From Aquimixticola soesokkakensis (lineage in GTDB: Bacteria; Pseudomonadota; Alphaproteobacteria; Rhodobacterales; Rhodobacteraceae), in assembly GCF_900172375.1 (NCBI RefSeq), contig NZ_FWFS01000004.1, positions 124,001 through 188,000 on the forward strand: 64,000 nt of DNA, read 5' to 3'. Positions 4,267-40,640 of this stretch are shown here, in pieces. The position numbers and the translations under genes were made by a program. The stretch's first letter is position 1, and each line of letters begins with the position of its first letter. The notes beneath the pieces were generated by a model. It searched no databases and was not told the origin of the DNA. It worked only from the letters and a program-made list of their open reading frames with translations.

Positions 4267-4314
4267 ATGGTACCACCACCCCGGCTCGAACGGGGGACCT
4301 CCTGATCCACAATC
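4267..4314 (-). other. Prophage attachment site, left copy (3' part of tRNA-His)
   Basis: These 48 bp are identical to 40563-40610. They comprise the last 47 nt of a tRNA-His gene (anticodon loop, T arm, acceptor 3' strand and CCA) plus one flanking base. The sequence stops matching at 4315. Because the intact tRNA lies at the other end, this copy is the original host 3' end displaced by integration. Confidence 0.93.
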
Positions 4315-4340
4315 CTATTTGAAATCAGGCAACACCAAGT

Positions 4341-4414
4341 AAAATCAATCTCTTAACTCTCTCGGTTGGATCACAAGAGCGGCGATATTTGCCGTTCATG
4401 CGACGGTTGGATCA
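4341..4414. repeat. Integrase arm-type sites, left end
   Basis: The element CGGTTGGATCA occurs at 4363-4373 and again at 4404-4414. The 10-mer AAAATCAATC lies at 4341-4350. Both have inverted partners at the right end (GATCCAACCG at 40522-40531 and GATTGATTTT at 40553-40562). Short repeats flanking the core at both ends are what tyrosine integrases bind as arm sites. Confidence 0.65.
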
Positions 4415-15127: not shown

Positions 15128-15795
15128 CGGTTCAGATATTCCGTGAAGTTGAGAGCCGGGGCATAGGCACGGGAACCCCCGTAAGGCATTCGCCCCATAT
15201 CATCAGAGTCAGCCGCAAAAAGACCGTGAGCACGCATCTCTATCTGATCACCTACTGCAAGAGTGACGCGCAAGAGGGTCACACCGAGGATGACGGTGCC
15301 ATCCCCATTTTCATCCCGCCACGTCACGATAAACGGCCAGTCATTGATCGAGAGATGCGAGCCAACCCGCACCGGGCCGGAGACTTCTTCCACGTGGATT
15401 TCTGCCGCCCCCGCAGCGCAGCCCGTGACCACGCGCACGAACGGCGCATACTCAAAGCCCAAGCCGTTTGAAAAATTCTCTTCTGTCGAAAATGGAACAC
15501 CCGATGGACGAAACTCAGTGGGGGTTGCAGGCCCGCCATTGAGCGGGTCGAACATGGGGACGCGATAGATATTGACGCGCCCCTGTGCGGACGCTTTAAT
15601 TGCACGCCATTGGCGCGCAGCATCCCCGTGCAACGTCAAGGTCGCAGCGCCAACCCACCTCGGAAACCTGTTATAGACAAGCTGCGAACTGCCATCATTT
15701 GCAGATCCAGCGCTCTGCCCTCGCCAGTCGATGTCCCATTCGATGGATGCGACGCGCATTAAAGAGCGCGGGATCGTTACAGTTGATCGGATCAA
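15124..15795 (-). CDS. Minor tail protein following the tape measure
   Basis: A protein of 223 residues if the TTG at 15795 is used. This TTG overlaps the tape-measure stop as TTGA and has GGGGGA upstream; ATG 15759 (MRVASIEWDIDWRG) is a shorter alternative. Beta-rich segments include AATLTLHGDAARQWRAIKAS and NIYRVPMFDPLNGG. By position it is the distal tail protein, which joins tube to tip, but no motif proves this. Confidence 0.65.
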   Translation of the reverse strand: MIRSTVTIPRSLMRVASIEWDIDWRGQSAGSANDGSSQLVYNRFPRWVGAATLTLHGDAARQWRAIKASAQGRVNIYRVPMFDPLNGGPATPTEFRPSGVPFSTEENFSNGLGFEYAPFVRVVTGCAAGAAEIHVEEVSGPVRVGSHLSINDWPFIVTWRDENGDGTVILGVTLLRVTLAVGDQIEMRAHGLFAADSDDMGRMPYGGSRAYAPALNFTEYLNR

Positions 15796-18110
15796 TACGA
15801 CGTCCCCCGCTGAGCCATAGATTGCTGGCGCGCCAATGAGCTATTTGATTGAGATTTTACGGCTTGCCGCGTGATGATCATCGACTGCGGCCCCGAGATT
15901 GATGCAACATCGCTGCGGAAGGTACTGCCAGCCGATCCGGATACGACCAAATGGATTTGCTGCGGCCCTGAAGATTGTGAGGCCAAAGCCCGTTGCGCCT
16001 GACCCACATTGAGGATTGCGCCAGATTGGCTAGGCACAAACAGCTCGCTGTTGGGGGTGTTTTCGTTGACGAGATAGGCCTGGCCCGCTTGCACGCCACC
16101 ACCATTGGCGCGCGCGCCGCCGAAGATGCTCGAAATAGCCGCCCCGAGAAAGCCACTGAAACCGCCGCCGGACGATCTACCCGAGCCAATGCCGGCAAGT
16201 GTGTTGGCAAGGCCCTCTGCAGCAGACCGGATCGCGGCATCGGTGAGCATATCCAAAAGAACCTGCCCGAGGTTGTCGCCATTGCGCGCAGCAGTCAGCA
16301 ATGAGGTTGCAACGTCCTCGATGCCATCGCGCATATTGCCCCATTTTTCCTCATCAATGCTATCGGTGACCTGGGCAACGGCGCGAGCATAGGTTTCGGG
16401 TGCTTCTGCGAAATAACCGGCCTCGTTGAGAGCCTCCAGTTGGACAAGCTCGGCCTCGTATTTTTCGAGCGCCGTGCGGGTTCGGTCAATCCAACGCTCG
16501 GCCTCGCGCAAATTGTCATCGACCGGAGTGCTACCGCTGGCGCCCGATTTTCCGCCGCCTGTGTTGCGTGATGCATTTGCCGCAATATTGCCCGAGGCGA
16601 TTTCAGTGATCTGCGCGTCCGAAAGCGACAGACCCTTTTCTGTGGCATCGGCGCGGACGCTCGCAACCTCGCGCTCGAGAGCAAGCTGATCTCTTGTGAG
16701 GCCCTGTAGCCGCTCTTGCTCGCTGACATAATCAGATGCAGCGTCCGCTTGAGCGCCCAAGGCATTGAGATCGGCAAGTAGGCCTGACTTCGCTTCGGCA
16801 GGTGACTGTGGGCGTCTTGCAATGGAGGCATTGAGCTGGTCCGATTGTGACGTGGCAGCGCTCAGTTGACCAGTGACGGCACCAATGGCGGCGATCAACG
16901 CCGACATATCTATGCCGCTGACCTGTTCCAATCCACCAGCGGCGGCGAGCGCTTCGGTTAATGTGTCTGACAAAAGCGCATTGTATTCATCGATATCGAT
17001 CATGCCCATTTGCAGCTGGGCATTTAGGCCTGCGATGTTATCCGCCGCGCGGGCCATTTGGTCCGCAATCACATCGTTTCCGCTCACCTCTGCAATTTGA
17101 GCCATGGCAGCAAGACTATTTGCCAGTTCATCGGTGTCTGCGGTAAGGGCGCTAGAGGCGGCGGCCAGTTCACTCAGGCTGTCGGCGTTTGCATCAGAAA
17201 TATCAGCCAGGTCGGCAAACTTTGCATAGGCCTCGTCACTCAAAAGAGCCTTGGCGAGCGCATCCGTGCCAAAAATATCTTCAAGATTGGTTGTCGCCAA
17301 CCCCGGGATCATGTCAGCCAGAGCCAGAGCAAATTGCTTTCCGTAGCTACCCATCCGCGTGGATAGATCGGCCCATTTGCGATCGATAACATCGGCCTTT
17401 GCGATCAGCTCCTCGTCAAGTACCGCCCCCATATCATGCGCACGATCAATTGTAGCGCGTAGGGCATTTTCGCCTTGTCCCAGAATTTCAACAAAGCGCT
17501 CGCCCGCAGCGCCGCCGAATAGCTCATCGGAAATGCGGATCTGTGCAGCCTTGTCCATGCCCTCCATACGCCCGAGCATTTCCAGCATGAGTTCCGAGGG
17601 GTCTTTGATTTTCCGCTTCAACTCATCGCTGCTGTAGCCGAGGCGTTTCAAAGCATCCGCAGCGGGCCCCACGCCCGTCACCGTGAATTCATCCACGCGC
17701 AAAGCGAGTTCCTTGAAACCGTCAACCAGAGCGTCGACACCAATACGGTTCTGATCCGCAACATAGGACCATTCTTGGAATGCCTGCGCTGACAGGCCTG
17801 AGCGCTTCGCTTCATTGCCAATAGTGGCGATGCCTTTGACAGTCTGACCTATGTTGTTGACCACCATATCCAGCGCCGTGGTAATCGCTCCCGCAGCCAA
17901 GCCAGCCACAAAGGTTTTCCCGAGCGCAGTCGCACTCTTTCCCATCCGCGCAAAATTGGCATCAACCGTCTTTGCCATACCAGTTGTGTTCTTGCCCGCA
18001 TCTTTTGTCATGCGCGCGATCAGCTTGTTATTGCGATCCATCGCGCGCTGGAAATCTTTATCCTTTGCTCGCAGGAGGATCGTGATTGCTTCAAGGTTGT
18101 CGTCAGCCAT
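15792..18110 (-). CDS. Tail tape measure protein
   Basis: A protein of 772 residues from ATG 18110. It starts MADDNLEAITILLRAKDKDF and contains long helical, alanine-rich stretches, a hydrophobic segment (VAGLAAGAITTALDMVVNNI, about residue 70) and a glycine-rich, partly hydrophobic C-terminal third (GIGSGRSSGGGFSGFLGAAI). This is the usual make-up of a tape measure, which sets tail length; about 770 residues would predict a tail of roughly 110-120 nm by the 1.5 angstrom per residue rule. Its start overlaps the end of the frameshifted chaperone gene by 8 bp. Confidence 0.9.
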   Translation of the reverse strand: MADDNLEAITILLRAKDKDFQRAMDRNNKLIARMTKDAGKNTTGMAKTVDANFARMGKSATALGKTFVAGLAAGAITTALDMVVNNIGQTVKGIATIGNEAKRSGLSAQAFQEWSYVADQNRIGVDALVDGFKELALRVDEFTVTGVGPAADALKRLGYSSDELKRKIKDPSELMLEMLGRMEGMDKAAQIRISDELFGGAAGERFVEILGQGENALRATIDRAHDMGAVLDEELIAKADVIDRKWADLSTRMGSYGKQFALALADMIPGLATTNLEDIFGTDALAKALLSDEAYAKFADLADISDANADSLSELAAASSALTADTDELANSLAAMAQIAEVSGNDVIADQMARAADNIAGLNAQLQMGMIDIDEYNALLSDTLTEALAAAGGLEQVSGIDMSALIAAIGAVTGQLSAATSQSDQLNASIARRPQSPAEAKSGLLADLNALGAQADAASDYVSEQERLQGLTRDQLALEREVASVRADATEKGLSLSDAQITEIASGNIAANASRNTGGGKSGASGSTPVDDNLREAERWIDRTRTALEKYEAELVQLEALNEAGYFAEAPETYARAVAQVTDSIDEEKWGNMRDGIEDVATSLLTAARNGDNLGQVLLDMLTDAAIRSAAEGLANTLAGIGSGRSSGGGFSGFLGAAISSIFGGARANGGGVQAGQAYLVNENTPNSELFVPSQSGAILNVGQAQRALASQSSGPQQIHLVVSGSAGSTFRSDVASISGPQSMIITRQAVKSQSNSSLARQQSMAQRGTSY

Positions 18111-18255
18111 ACCGCGCCTCAAGCTCCTCTAGGTCTTTAATTGTGGGGGGTGGCAGTTCGCCCGACGCTGCCGATTGGGCCGCGTTCCAAGCGTCGACAA
18201 GTTCGCTGGTCTCTTTGGGTGTCAGCGCCCGCACCTCGCCAGGCAGGCGCCCCAT
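18103..18255 (-). CDS. Tail assembly chaperone, second (T) segment
   Basis: A 50-residue frame from ATG 18255 to TGA 18103 (MGRLPGEVRALTPKETSEL and on to LEELEARYG). It overlaps the stop of the preceding chaperone gene as TGATG and reaches into the tape-measure start. It is in the -1 frame of that gene. The same frame is open 27 codons further upstream to a run of nine A, so it is probably made mainly as the C-terminal part of a frameshift fusion (see 18336-18344). It may also be translated alone by coupling at TGATG. Tail assembly chaperones bind the tape measure. Confidence 0.75.
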   Translation of the reverse strand: MGRLPGEVRALTPKETSELVDAWNAAQSAASGELPPPTIKDLEELEARYG

Positions 18256-18677
18256 CACACCGCAGATATTTCGGACACGCTCTGCGGTGCCGTATCGCTC
18301 TTGGCGCTCGACTTTTTCACGGGCGATCCAGCCGCTTTTTTTTTATCGCCAGCCGTCAAAGCCGCAGGGATGAAGGTCACGCCAAGAACCCGCTGTGCTG
18401 TCTGGCGCAGAGCCATGTTTTCAGAGGGAGGCAGCGAAGAAATTAGCGCATCGGCCTCGCGATCCGTCATTCCGCCGCCAACCAAAGCAAGCGCCACGAT
18501 GTCACGCACATGGCTCACCTTTGGCGCGTCCCCGCGACCGAAAAGCTGGTCGAAAAGTTGAAAGACGCCGAAATCATATTGCAGCTCGAAACGCTCGATC
18601 TCGCCATTGCGCAGGACGAGGCGGCGAGTTTCCCCGCCGACCTTCTCTTCATAGACGCCGGTCGATGCAATCGCCAA
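18255..18677 (-). CDS. Tail assembly chaperone, first (G) segment; gene transfer agent gp10-like
   Basis: A protein of 140 residues starting MAIASTGVYEEKVGGETRRL. RLVLRNGEIERFELQYDFGVFQLF followed by READALISSLPPSEN resembles tail chaperones of the gene transfer agent gp10 type. After residue 111 the frame turns into a low-complexity Ser/Lys/Ala tail (AAGSPVKKSSAKSD), starting exactly at an A9 run. A -1 slip at that run replaces the tail with a charged helical extension, giving about 191 residues. It lies between the tail tube and tape measure genes, the standard site of G/GT. Confidence 0.85.
   Translation of the reverse strand: MAIASTGVYEEKVGGETRRLVLRNGEIERFELQYDFGVFQLFDQLFGRGDAPKVSHVRDIVALALVGGGMTDREADALISSLPPSENMALRQTAQRVLGVTFIPAALTAGDKKKAAGSPVKKSSAKSDTAPQSVSEISAV
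18336..18344 (-). promoter_or_regulatory. Programmed -1 ribosomal frameshift site (A9)
   Basis: The coding strand reads GAT AAA AAA AAA GCG. A slip back by one base puts ribosomes in a frame that continues AGC GGC TGG ATC and stays open for 27 codons to the ATG at 18255, then through the whole 50-codon T frame to TGA at 18103. The +1 frame hits a stop within a few codons. Lambda-type tail chaperones (gpG/gpGT) are made this way. Confidence 0.8.
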
Positions 18678-18679
18678 GG

Positions 18680-19108
18680 TCAGACCTCTGCAGTGAAGGT
18701 TACAGCCCCGCTTGATGCGGCAGAAAGGTTGAGCGTCACACCACCGGAAGCCTCGCCACCCAGCTCAAAGGACGAGAAAAAGAACGCGCCCGAGAAGGTG
18801 CCGAAATTAGGCACAATCACTTCCAAATTTGCGATTGGGGTGTCCGAGAGCACGGCGTTCAGCGTGGTGATCTCTTCTGCACGGCCCTTTGAAATCCCGT
18901 TCCCACTGAAGCTGACCCGTTTTGTGCCGTCGAGCACCTCAGTCCACATCGGGCCGCCCGGGTCGTCACAATCCGGCGTGGTAACGTCGATCTCTTCGTT
19001 GTTGATTGTGATCGTTTTGGTGGTCAACGCGCAAAGCGTCGTGAACGCTTCCGTCTCAGCGCCATCGCCAATCTTGATGAGGAGCGTGCGCCCCTTTTGC
19101 TTTGCCAT
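18680..19108 (-). CDS. Major tail tube protein (TP901-1 type)
   Basis: A protein of 142 residues from ATG 19108, preceded by GGAGG at 5 nt; ATG 19120 upstream contains that ribosome site and is unlikely. Features are GRTLLIKIGDG near the N-terminus, NEEIDVTTPDC, WTEVLDGTKRVSFSGNGI and a beta-rich end. These match the TP901-1/gene transfer agent major tail family, which stacks in rings to form the tail tube. It lies between tail terminator and chaperone genes, as expected. Confidence 0.88.
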   Translation of the reverse strand: MAKQKGRTLLIKIGDGAETEAFTTLCALTTKTITINNEEIDVTTPDCDDPGGPMWTEVLDGTKRVSFSGNGISKGRAEEITTLNAVLSDTPIANLEVIVPNFGTFSGAFFFSSFELGGEASGGVTLNLSAASSGAVTFTAEV

Positions 19109-19164
19109 ATCGGCCTCCATGTTTGAAAATGGGCACGCGCCCGAACTGCCTTGCCGAAGGGCGG

Positions 19165-38922: not shown

Positions 38923-39216
38923 ATGAGCCTCGACCGCTCTTTTAATGAAAAAGCCGAGATGTGGTCGCAGGATCGTGCGGCGCTCGCCCTCGGGATGAAT
39001 TGCTCTCATTTCCGTAAGAAAAAGAAACAGTTGCAGGAAGAAGGCTTCCCCGAGGTGGACCACATCACCAAGCGCTACGTCGCCGCAGATGTGCGCGCTT
39101 GGATCGCGCGGCGTAGAAAAGTGCGTGATCCTGAGGCCCCGCCAAGGCAGACTATTTCCGGCACAATCGAAACCGTGCCGAATATCTCAGGAGCAATCAA
39201 CTATGACAGCCTATAA
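38923..39216 (+). CDS. Excisionase-like small DNA-binding protein
   Basis: A protein of 97 residues from ATG 38923. WSQDRAALALGMNCSHFRKKKKQLQEEGFP (read from residue about 13) and YVAADVRAWIARRRKV form a MerR/AlpA-type winged helix with the basic recognition region typical of excisionases. It lies directly before and overlaps the integrase gene by 14 bp, as xis genes usually do. It should bind the arm region and turn integrase toward excision. The assignment is by motif and position. Confidence 0.65.
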   Translation: MSLDRSFNEKAEMWSQDRAALALGMNCSHFRKKKKQLQEEGFPEVDHITKRYVAADVRAWIARRRKVRDPEAPPRQTISGTIETVPNISGAINYDSL

Positions 39217-40489
39217 GCCTGCGCTTTGGGACGGGTCCGATCCGTCCTACGCGCCGGGTCTTTCCTGGAGCAAACGCAATGCGACGTGGAAAGCCCCCAA
39301 GAAATATTCGGAGGCAGGGTTTGAGCCTGCCCGCGTCAACCTCAACCTTTCCGGCACGAGGGACGACGAGCATCAGCTTGCCCGCGCCGAATTGTGCCGC
39401 GCCCACACGCGCGCCATGCTGGAATGGTGGGACAAACTGGACAAAGCAGAATGGGACACCGGCAGCTTTGGCTACCTGATCCACCGCTATTTGACCGATC
39501 CAGAAAGCCCCTATGCCGAGGTGAAGGCCAACACCCAGAAAGGTTACGCCTATTGCTGCGACTATTGGAACGGCGCCATCGGCAACGTGAAGATCACAGC
39601 ACTGGATTACCGCGAGCTCAAGCGCATCCAGAAGGCCATGCAGGACAAGGGCCGATCGGTCGCGTTCATCCATCGCATGATCACCAATATGCGCATCCTC
39701 GCGTCCTATGGCAAAATCCTGAAACTGGCAGGGGCCGCAGACCTCAAAGAGACTTTGAGCGAAATGCGCTTTCAATCCCCGTCCGGCTCGACAACACGCC
39801 CGACCCGCGCCCAGATCGAGGCCGTTATCGCCGTATCAGATCGCGACGGGAACGCGGCATTCTCGGCTGGCCTCATGCTGCAATTTGAGTTGTCCTTACG
39901 CGCCGTGGACGTGCGCGGTCAGTGGTTTCCCATTGATGAAGCAGCCTTTGGCAACGGCGGGATCGTGCGGCGCTCTGTCAGGACCGTTCATAGCGGCCTA
40001 AAGAAAGGCGACCGCACAGTCATTTTCACACGCTGGCAAGACGGGTTGCGCATCGAACACTTCGACGCGGACATGACCAGCTTTGTGAAGGTGATTTCAA
40101 AAACGGAAAAGTCGATGCCTGAGCCGATCCGGTTCAGCCTCGAACATCTTCCCGATTTGCGTACACGCTTGATTGCCCTTCGCGGGGATCGTGTGATGGG
40201 GCCGCTTATTGTTACCGAAGCACATGGCCTTCCTTTCGAGCGCAGCGCATATGCCGCGTGCTGGAGGCGCTACGCCGCCCTTGCGAACGTCCCTTCACAA
40301 ATCAAACTCAAGGACGCGCGCGCCGGTGGTCTGACAGAGGCCGAGAGCTATGGTGCAGATCCACGCCTTCTTCAAGCAGCCGGTCAGCACGCCAACTTCA
40401 CTACCACAGAACGCTACCTGCGAAACAAAGACGAACAGGTGAATAAGGTTGTAGAGCTGCGTCAGGCTGGAAGGAATCGGAACGTCTGA
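39203..40489 (+). CDS. int: Tyrosine-type phage integrase
   Basis: A protein of 428 residues from ATG 39203, behind CAGGAG. A core-binding helical domain (KANTQKGYAYCCDYWNGAIG) precedes the catalytic domain. Catalytic residues appear as Arg 233 (SLRAVDVRG), Arg 373 (KDARAGG), His 396 (GQHANFT) and Tyr 405 (TERYLR). The usual first His of the H-x2-R box is replaced (KDAR). It should recombine the 48-bp tRNA-His core. It ends 73 bp before the attachment core, with arm sites in between. Confidence 0.93.
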   Translation: MTAYKPALWDGSDPSYAPGLSWSKRNATWKAPKKYSEAGFEPARVNLNLSGTRDDEHQLARAELCRAHTRAMLEWWDKLDKAEWDTGSFGYLIHRYLTDPESPYAEVKANTQKGYAYCCDYWNGAIGNVKITALDYRELKRIQKAMQDKGRSVAFIHRMITNMRILASYGKILKLAGAADLKETLSEMRFQSPSGSTTRPTRAQIEAVIAVSDRDGNAAFSAGLMLQFELSLRAVDVRGQWFPIDEAAFGNGGIVRRSVRTVHSGLKKGDRTVIFTRWQDGLRIEHFDADMTSFVKVISKTEKSMPEPIRFSLEHLPDLRTRLIALRGDRVMGPLIVTEAHGLPFERSAYAACWRRYAALANVPSQIKLKDARAGGLTEAESYGADPRLLQAAGQHANFTTTERYLRNKDEQVNKVVELRQAGRNRNV

Positions 40490-40562: not shown

Positions 40563-40610
40563 ATGGTACCACCACCCCGGCTCGAACGGGGGACCTCCTG
40601 ATCCACAATC
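40563..40610 (-). other. Prophage attachment site, right copy inside the intact tRNA-His
   Basis: The 48-bp core identical to 4267-4314. Here it is continuous with the 5' half of the tRNA (40611-40640), so the phage carries a copy of the 3' part of the gene and restores a functional tRNA on integration. Confidence 0.93.
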
Positions 40611-40640
40611 AGGCGCTCTAACCAACTGAGCTATGGCGGC
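40564..40640 (-). tRNA. tRNA-His (anticodon GTG)
   Basis: A 77-nt cloverleaf read on the minus strand: acceptor GCCGCCA pairs with TGGTGGT, discriminator A and encoded CCA. The anticodon stem is CCTGA/TCAGG with loop TTGTGGA, so the anticodon is GTG. The T arm carries GTTCGAGC. The last 47 nt come from the prophage. Confidence 0.97.

Follow-up and report, generated by a model that had tools for sequence, protein, structure and literature searches.

A candidate G/GT tail assembly chaperone pair with a conserved A9 slippery run in a siphovirus-like prophage of Aquimixticola soesokkakensis

A stretch of 64,000 nucleotides of Aquimixticola soesokkakensis DNA (the window) very probably encodes a tail assembly chaperone pair of the gpG/gpGT type, belonging to a siphovirus-like prophage and with the longer protein, GT, made by a −1 frameshift at a run of nine A residues (A9). 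The features on which this reading is built are as follows.

18677-18255, minus strand: G, the short tail assembly chaperone of the GTA-gp10 type, 140 aa, frame 0, TTG start (PF11836 and PHROG matches)
18336-18344, minus strand: A9 slippery run, with A_AAA_AAA as in-register heptamer (from the sequence and from relatives)
18103-18336, minus strand: T, the −1-frame extension, 77 codons and a stop (TGA, 18105-18103), kept in relatives
18257-18253, minus strand: TGATG, in which the stop codon ending G in frame 0 and the codon for Met28 of T overlap (no support for re-start here)
15792-18110, minus strand: tape-measure protein, whose ATG (18110-18108) overlaps the end of T (PF10145 and sequence)
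18680-19120: major tail protein (PF06199)

Results

The locus

G is matched by PF11836 (Phage_TAC_11, "Phage tail tube protein, GTA-gp10") with E=5.9e-9 and 36.3 bits, above the cut-off of 27.8, and by PHROG 8985 ("tail tube protein") at E=2.8e-11. It lies between the genes for the major tail protein and the tape-measure protein, in the order tail tube, G, T, tape measure; the PF10145 match of the tape-measure protein, at 32.6 bits, falls slightly below the 33.2-bit cut-off. Other neighbours encode a tail completion protein, a head completion protein and an HK97-type capsid, and there are weak terminase matches; these tail, head and capsid neighbours identify the locus as the structural module of a siphovirus-like prophage. 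The window T has no match in Pfam at E<=10 or in PHROGs, and the profile of gene transfer agent (GTA) T proteins (PF09550, Phage_TAC_6) does not recognize it.

A 48-bp perfect direct repeat occurs at window positions 4267-4314 and 40563-40610, its right copy at the 3' end of a tRNA-His gene (40564-40640, minus strand) with an integrase-like ORF (39089-40489) next to it, and the two copies are probably attL and attR of a prophage of ~36.3 kb. An essentially identical chaperone is carried by a 37,146-bp IMG/VR contig; no near DNA relatives of the prophage were found in the phage collection searched.

The A9 run and the three reading frames

The geometry proposed in the initial annotation is borne out by the minus-strand sequence, which reads GGC GAT AAA AAA AAA GCG near the end of G, the three AAA codons encoding G residues 112-114 (KKK). 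Past the run, frame 0 continues for 26 residues (AAGSPVKK...SAV; residues 115-140, a tail unique to this frame) and then stops, and the +1 frame is closed, reading RLDRP before its stop. The −1 frame begins SGWIAREKVERQERYGTAERVRNICGVMGRLPGEVRALTPKE and stays open for 77 codons to the TGA at 18105-18103, finishing within the opening codons of the tape-measure gene, which gives a predicted fusion of 114+77 = 191 residues; the frame-0 stop and a −1-frame ATG together form the TGATG at 18257-18253.

The run at 18336-18344 is the only A9 or T9 in the 64-kb window, where shuffling expects 0.55, so one such run is not rare in itself. Related phage DNA totalling 545 kb (less in distinct sequence, as some loci overlap) has 104 runs of at least nine A or T at the slip site and 0 elsewhere. 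It is the conservation of A9 at the slip site, not its presence, that clearly exceeds chance.

T is kept in the −1 frame among relatives

Relatives were collected with a G profile in two scans that yielded 80 viral loci and then another 80, and genomes and phage RcapNL supplied additional loci. A T-domain profile, seeded from a few relatives and then iterated, was searched downstream of G and detected T in 74 non-identical loci among those first collected and in 124 once the set was enlarged. Of these 124, 119 have T in the −1 frame, 4 in +1 and 1 in frame. The refuting case named in the initial annotation, homologues with stops in the −1 frame after the run, is thus not what the relatives show: they hold that frame open, with the T domain in it. 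Taken together, the relatives render it very likely that a G/GT fusion arises by −1 frameshift.

Four of the five exceptions have a run that is one or two A's short: L086, L100 and L119 (A8, T in +1) and RcapNL (A7, in frame). Restoring nine A's would place T in −1 in all four, which are either natural indels or homopolymer miscalls. L119 (A8) and L111 (A9) are 99.8% identical over the 2 kb upstream and 99.3% over the 2 kb downstream. For RcapNL (JQ066768; L010, about 4331-4350), the nearest relative, L066, carries an A9 run with T in −1, and no second RcapNL copy in which to check the A7 run was found in viral contigs. L230, where T was detected in +1 despite an in-register A9, is unexplained.

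The G tail and T overlap, and we asked which of the two frames the substitutions follow. Over 20 disjoint pairs, differences at T-frame positions 1/2/3 number 122/118/183 (p=8e-5 against equality). Position 3 of T is position 2 of frame 0, where differences should be fewest were frame 0 the one that counts. The closest pair, the window and L003 (83% identical), are 72% identical in the −1 reading and 52% in frame 0. Substitutions in the overlap track the −1 frame, not frame 0. Comparison of the relatives shows selection for the −1 frame, for a slippery site and for T staying at −1 relative to G.

Slip sites vary while the outcome is fixed

Among the 119 relatives with T in −1, the run is A9 in 99, A10 in 4, A6 in 8 and A7 in 5, with an in-register G_GGA_AAG, the heptamer of lambda, in 2 and an imperfect G_GAA_AAG in 1. 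At L008 (about 1450), T is in −1 without a perfect heptamer and G_GAA_AAG stands directly before the frame-0 stop. The codon phase that gives A_AAA_AAG is found in 8/8 of the A6 runs and 4/5 of the A7 runs; across the 99 A9 loci, all three phases are occupied (51/5/43). Slip-site types switch at least 24 times on a G tree that has few columns and many open forks, and the −1 relation of T stays; the clade of the window itself mixes A9, A6 and G_GGA_AAG.

Neighbouring sequence that might stimulate slippage was also considered. A downstream stimulatory hairpin was rejected as its stability is no greater than in other windows: 50-nt windows downstream have a mean z of about −0.4, the same as elsewhere in genes, and no conserved hairpin was seen. 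Shine-Dalgarno (SD)-like motifs lie within 20 nt upstream in 25/74 loci vs 0/74 at a control position, an excess that may reflect composition, the segment often being rich in Glu/Asp codons (GAG, GAC); none lies upstream of the A9 of the window. We found 42 tRNA genes in the host, a count that may miss a few, and the sole Lys tRNA among them is UUU.

Gene transfer agents have a separate T gene

GTA gp10 and T (PF11836 and PF09550), from gene transfer agents in the bacterial family of the window, are homologous to the window G and T and have the same gene order, the relation of the window T to GTA T proteins being seen at the profile-profile level alone (hhalign probability 96.6%). In contrast to the window, the 53 GTA g10/T pairs have no slippery site, no stretch of A in the final 60 nt of G being longer than four, and T stands as a gene by itself, whose own start codon overlaps or adjoins the G stop in nearly all pairs. 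Relative to G, this T is in −1 in 34, in +1 in 18 and in frame 0 in 1. The window pair does not share this arrangement. The host's own GTA pair, on contig C15 (L153, 194000-198000), has an ATGA overlap and no slippery run; other GTA clusters without a slippery run between g10 and T are L012-L041 and L128-L151.

This contrast, less expected than the frameshift itself, suggests that the G-T fusion has been lost from GTAs, and it raises the question of whether a GTA tail is built without one. We found no discussion of this contrast (no slip site, separate T) in the literature searched, which is not proof of its absence.

Discussion

Our preferred reading is that most ribosomes would stay in frame 0 and produce the short G of 140 aa, while a fraction would shift to −1 at A9 (A_AAA_AAA) and produce a GT fusion of ~191 aa. 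By analogy with lambda, the tape-measure protein would be coated by many copies of G and few of GT, the latter recruiting the major tail protein through its T part. We infer that it is the ribosome, not RNA polymerase, that would slip at A9, and likewise the efficiency of the slip and the roles of G and GT.

The relatives with short runs or G_GGA_AAG fit ribosomal slippage, and at A9 itself either the ribosome or RNA polymerase may slip. If RNA polymerase slips at A9, mRNAs with an extra A would read G and T in one frame and normal mRNAs would give G. Such slippage is established at the nine A's of Thermus dnaX and is also used by several IS elements (PMC5009743, PMC3711429), and an A9 that is blind to phase is what a polymerase would see: the run is exactly nine long in 99 loci whatever its phase (51/5/43), and a ribosome needs only six or seven A's. 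We nevertheless consider it unlikely that polymerase slippage accounts for GT. Relatives with A6 or G_GGA_AAG cannot slip by polymerase, and their sites sit in ribosomal register; moreover, T remains in −1, whereas a polymerase losing one A would also permit +1. Frameshifting also rises with A-run length in reporters that cannot tell ribosomal from polymerase slippage, cassettes based on another gene cluster giving 10% with A7, 40% with A9 and 63% with A11; two phage tail-chaperone cassettes gave 6-7% (PMC3711429). A composite is conceivable and a shade less likely again: the A9 class would use RNA polymerase and its A6 and G_GGA_AAG sisters the ribosome, making one fusion by two interchangeable mechanisms, and domesticated GTAs would have given up the fusion for separate G and T genes.

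The initial annotation also raised a third product, a T re-started at TGATG. This proposal found no support, and that T is mainly a separate protein made by termination and re-start there is very unlikely. In its favour, the window shares its TGATG with 11 members of its clade, 1 further relative has TAATG at the same site, and T in GTA clusters does begin at a stop/start overlap. However, the ATG (18255-18253) is residue 28 of T, in the motif NICGVMGRLP, and is internal to the T domain, which begins ~16 residues upstream. The AlphaFold2 model of T (mean pLDDT 81) has helices at 17-28, 32-36, 40-57 and 66-76, and GTA T aligns with the window T from residue 12 of the latter, so a product re-started at the end of the first predicted helix would lose that helix. 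The stop, in turn, is a by-product of coding in T, since TGA is the frame-0 reading of the Val-Met codons GTG-ATG and requires GTG for the Val (GTA gives TAA instead). Among relatives whose frame 0 terminates at this motif, Val is encoded by GTG in 12 and GTA in 1; where frame 0 has already stopped earlier, the codon is GTG in 3, and GTC, GCC, ATC and ACN also occur. This distribution suggests, on small numbers, that the codon may be kept to end frame 0. Many relatives have no ATG, some lacking the Met altogether, and in RcapNL the Met of the motif lies within the single ORF.

That A9 is a sequencing or assembly indel in what is truly a single ORF is extremely improbable: RcapNL (A7) is annotated as one 190-aa ORF and homopolymers are error-prone, but A9 is seen again in 99 non-identical loci from isolates and metagenomes, and the outliers are the single-ORF and +1 loci, 4/5 of which would be −1 at nine A's.

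Recognizing the frameshift would put right how GT is annotated in >100 related phages and prophages, where standard ORF calling overlooks it; in the window, neither Pfam nor PHROGs recognizes its T extension. Between them the relatives also span a natural range of slip sites (A9 in each codon phase, A6, A7 and G_GGA_AAG) with a fixed outcome, which makes ribosome versus polymerase slippage directly testable.

Comparison with known systems

The poly-A slip site of the window resembles those of dnaX, A_AAA_AAG in E. coli and A9 in Thermus, and is read in a host whose detected Lys tRNA is UUU; unlike dnaX-type sites, it has no SD-like or hairpin stimulator that we could find. Gene 16 of Rhodobacter phage RcapNL encodes a G that is 63% identical to the window G, together with the same T domain, but the gene contains A7, and as deposited G and T form one open frame of 190 codons.

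PDB searches with the G model, built without an RcapNL row (pLDDT 85), and the T model (pLDDT 81) gave no match at E<=0.001, lactococcal p2 ORF12 appearing only at E=3.9, and solved-structure and fold searches with G and T gave nothing significant. As in the window, lambda gpG/gpGT lies between the tail tube and tape-measure genes, shifts to −1 near the end of G and has a T extension that ends at the tape-measure gene (PMC5009743). Lambda uses G_GGA_AAG where the window has A9, and no Pfam or PHROG match links the window G or T to those of lambda, but two relatives of the window pair share the identical heptamer. The window pair has a T that overlaps G in −1, an in-register slip sequence near the end of G and a −1 relation kept in 119/124 relatives. 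The combination of a homopolymer slip and a TGATG overlap had been described as unusual, a label that we do not retain for the feature: long-tailed phages generally frameshift their tail chaperones (PMC5009743), and this has been reported in most R. capsulatus phages (PMC8601537). The window pair is an addition to the already known lambda gpG/gpGT kind.
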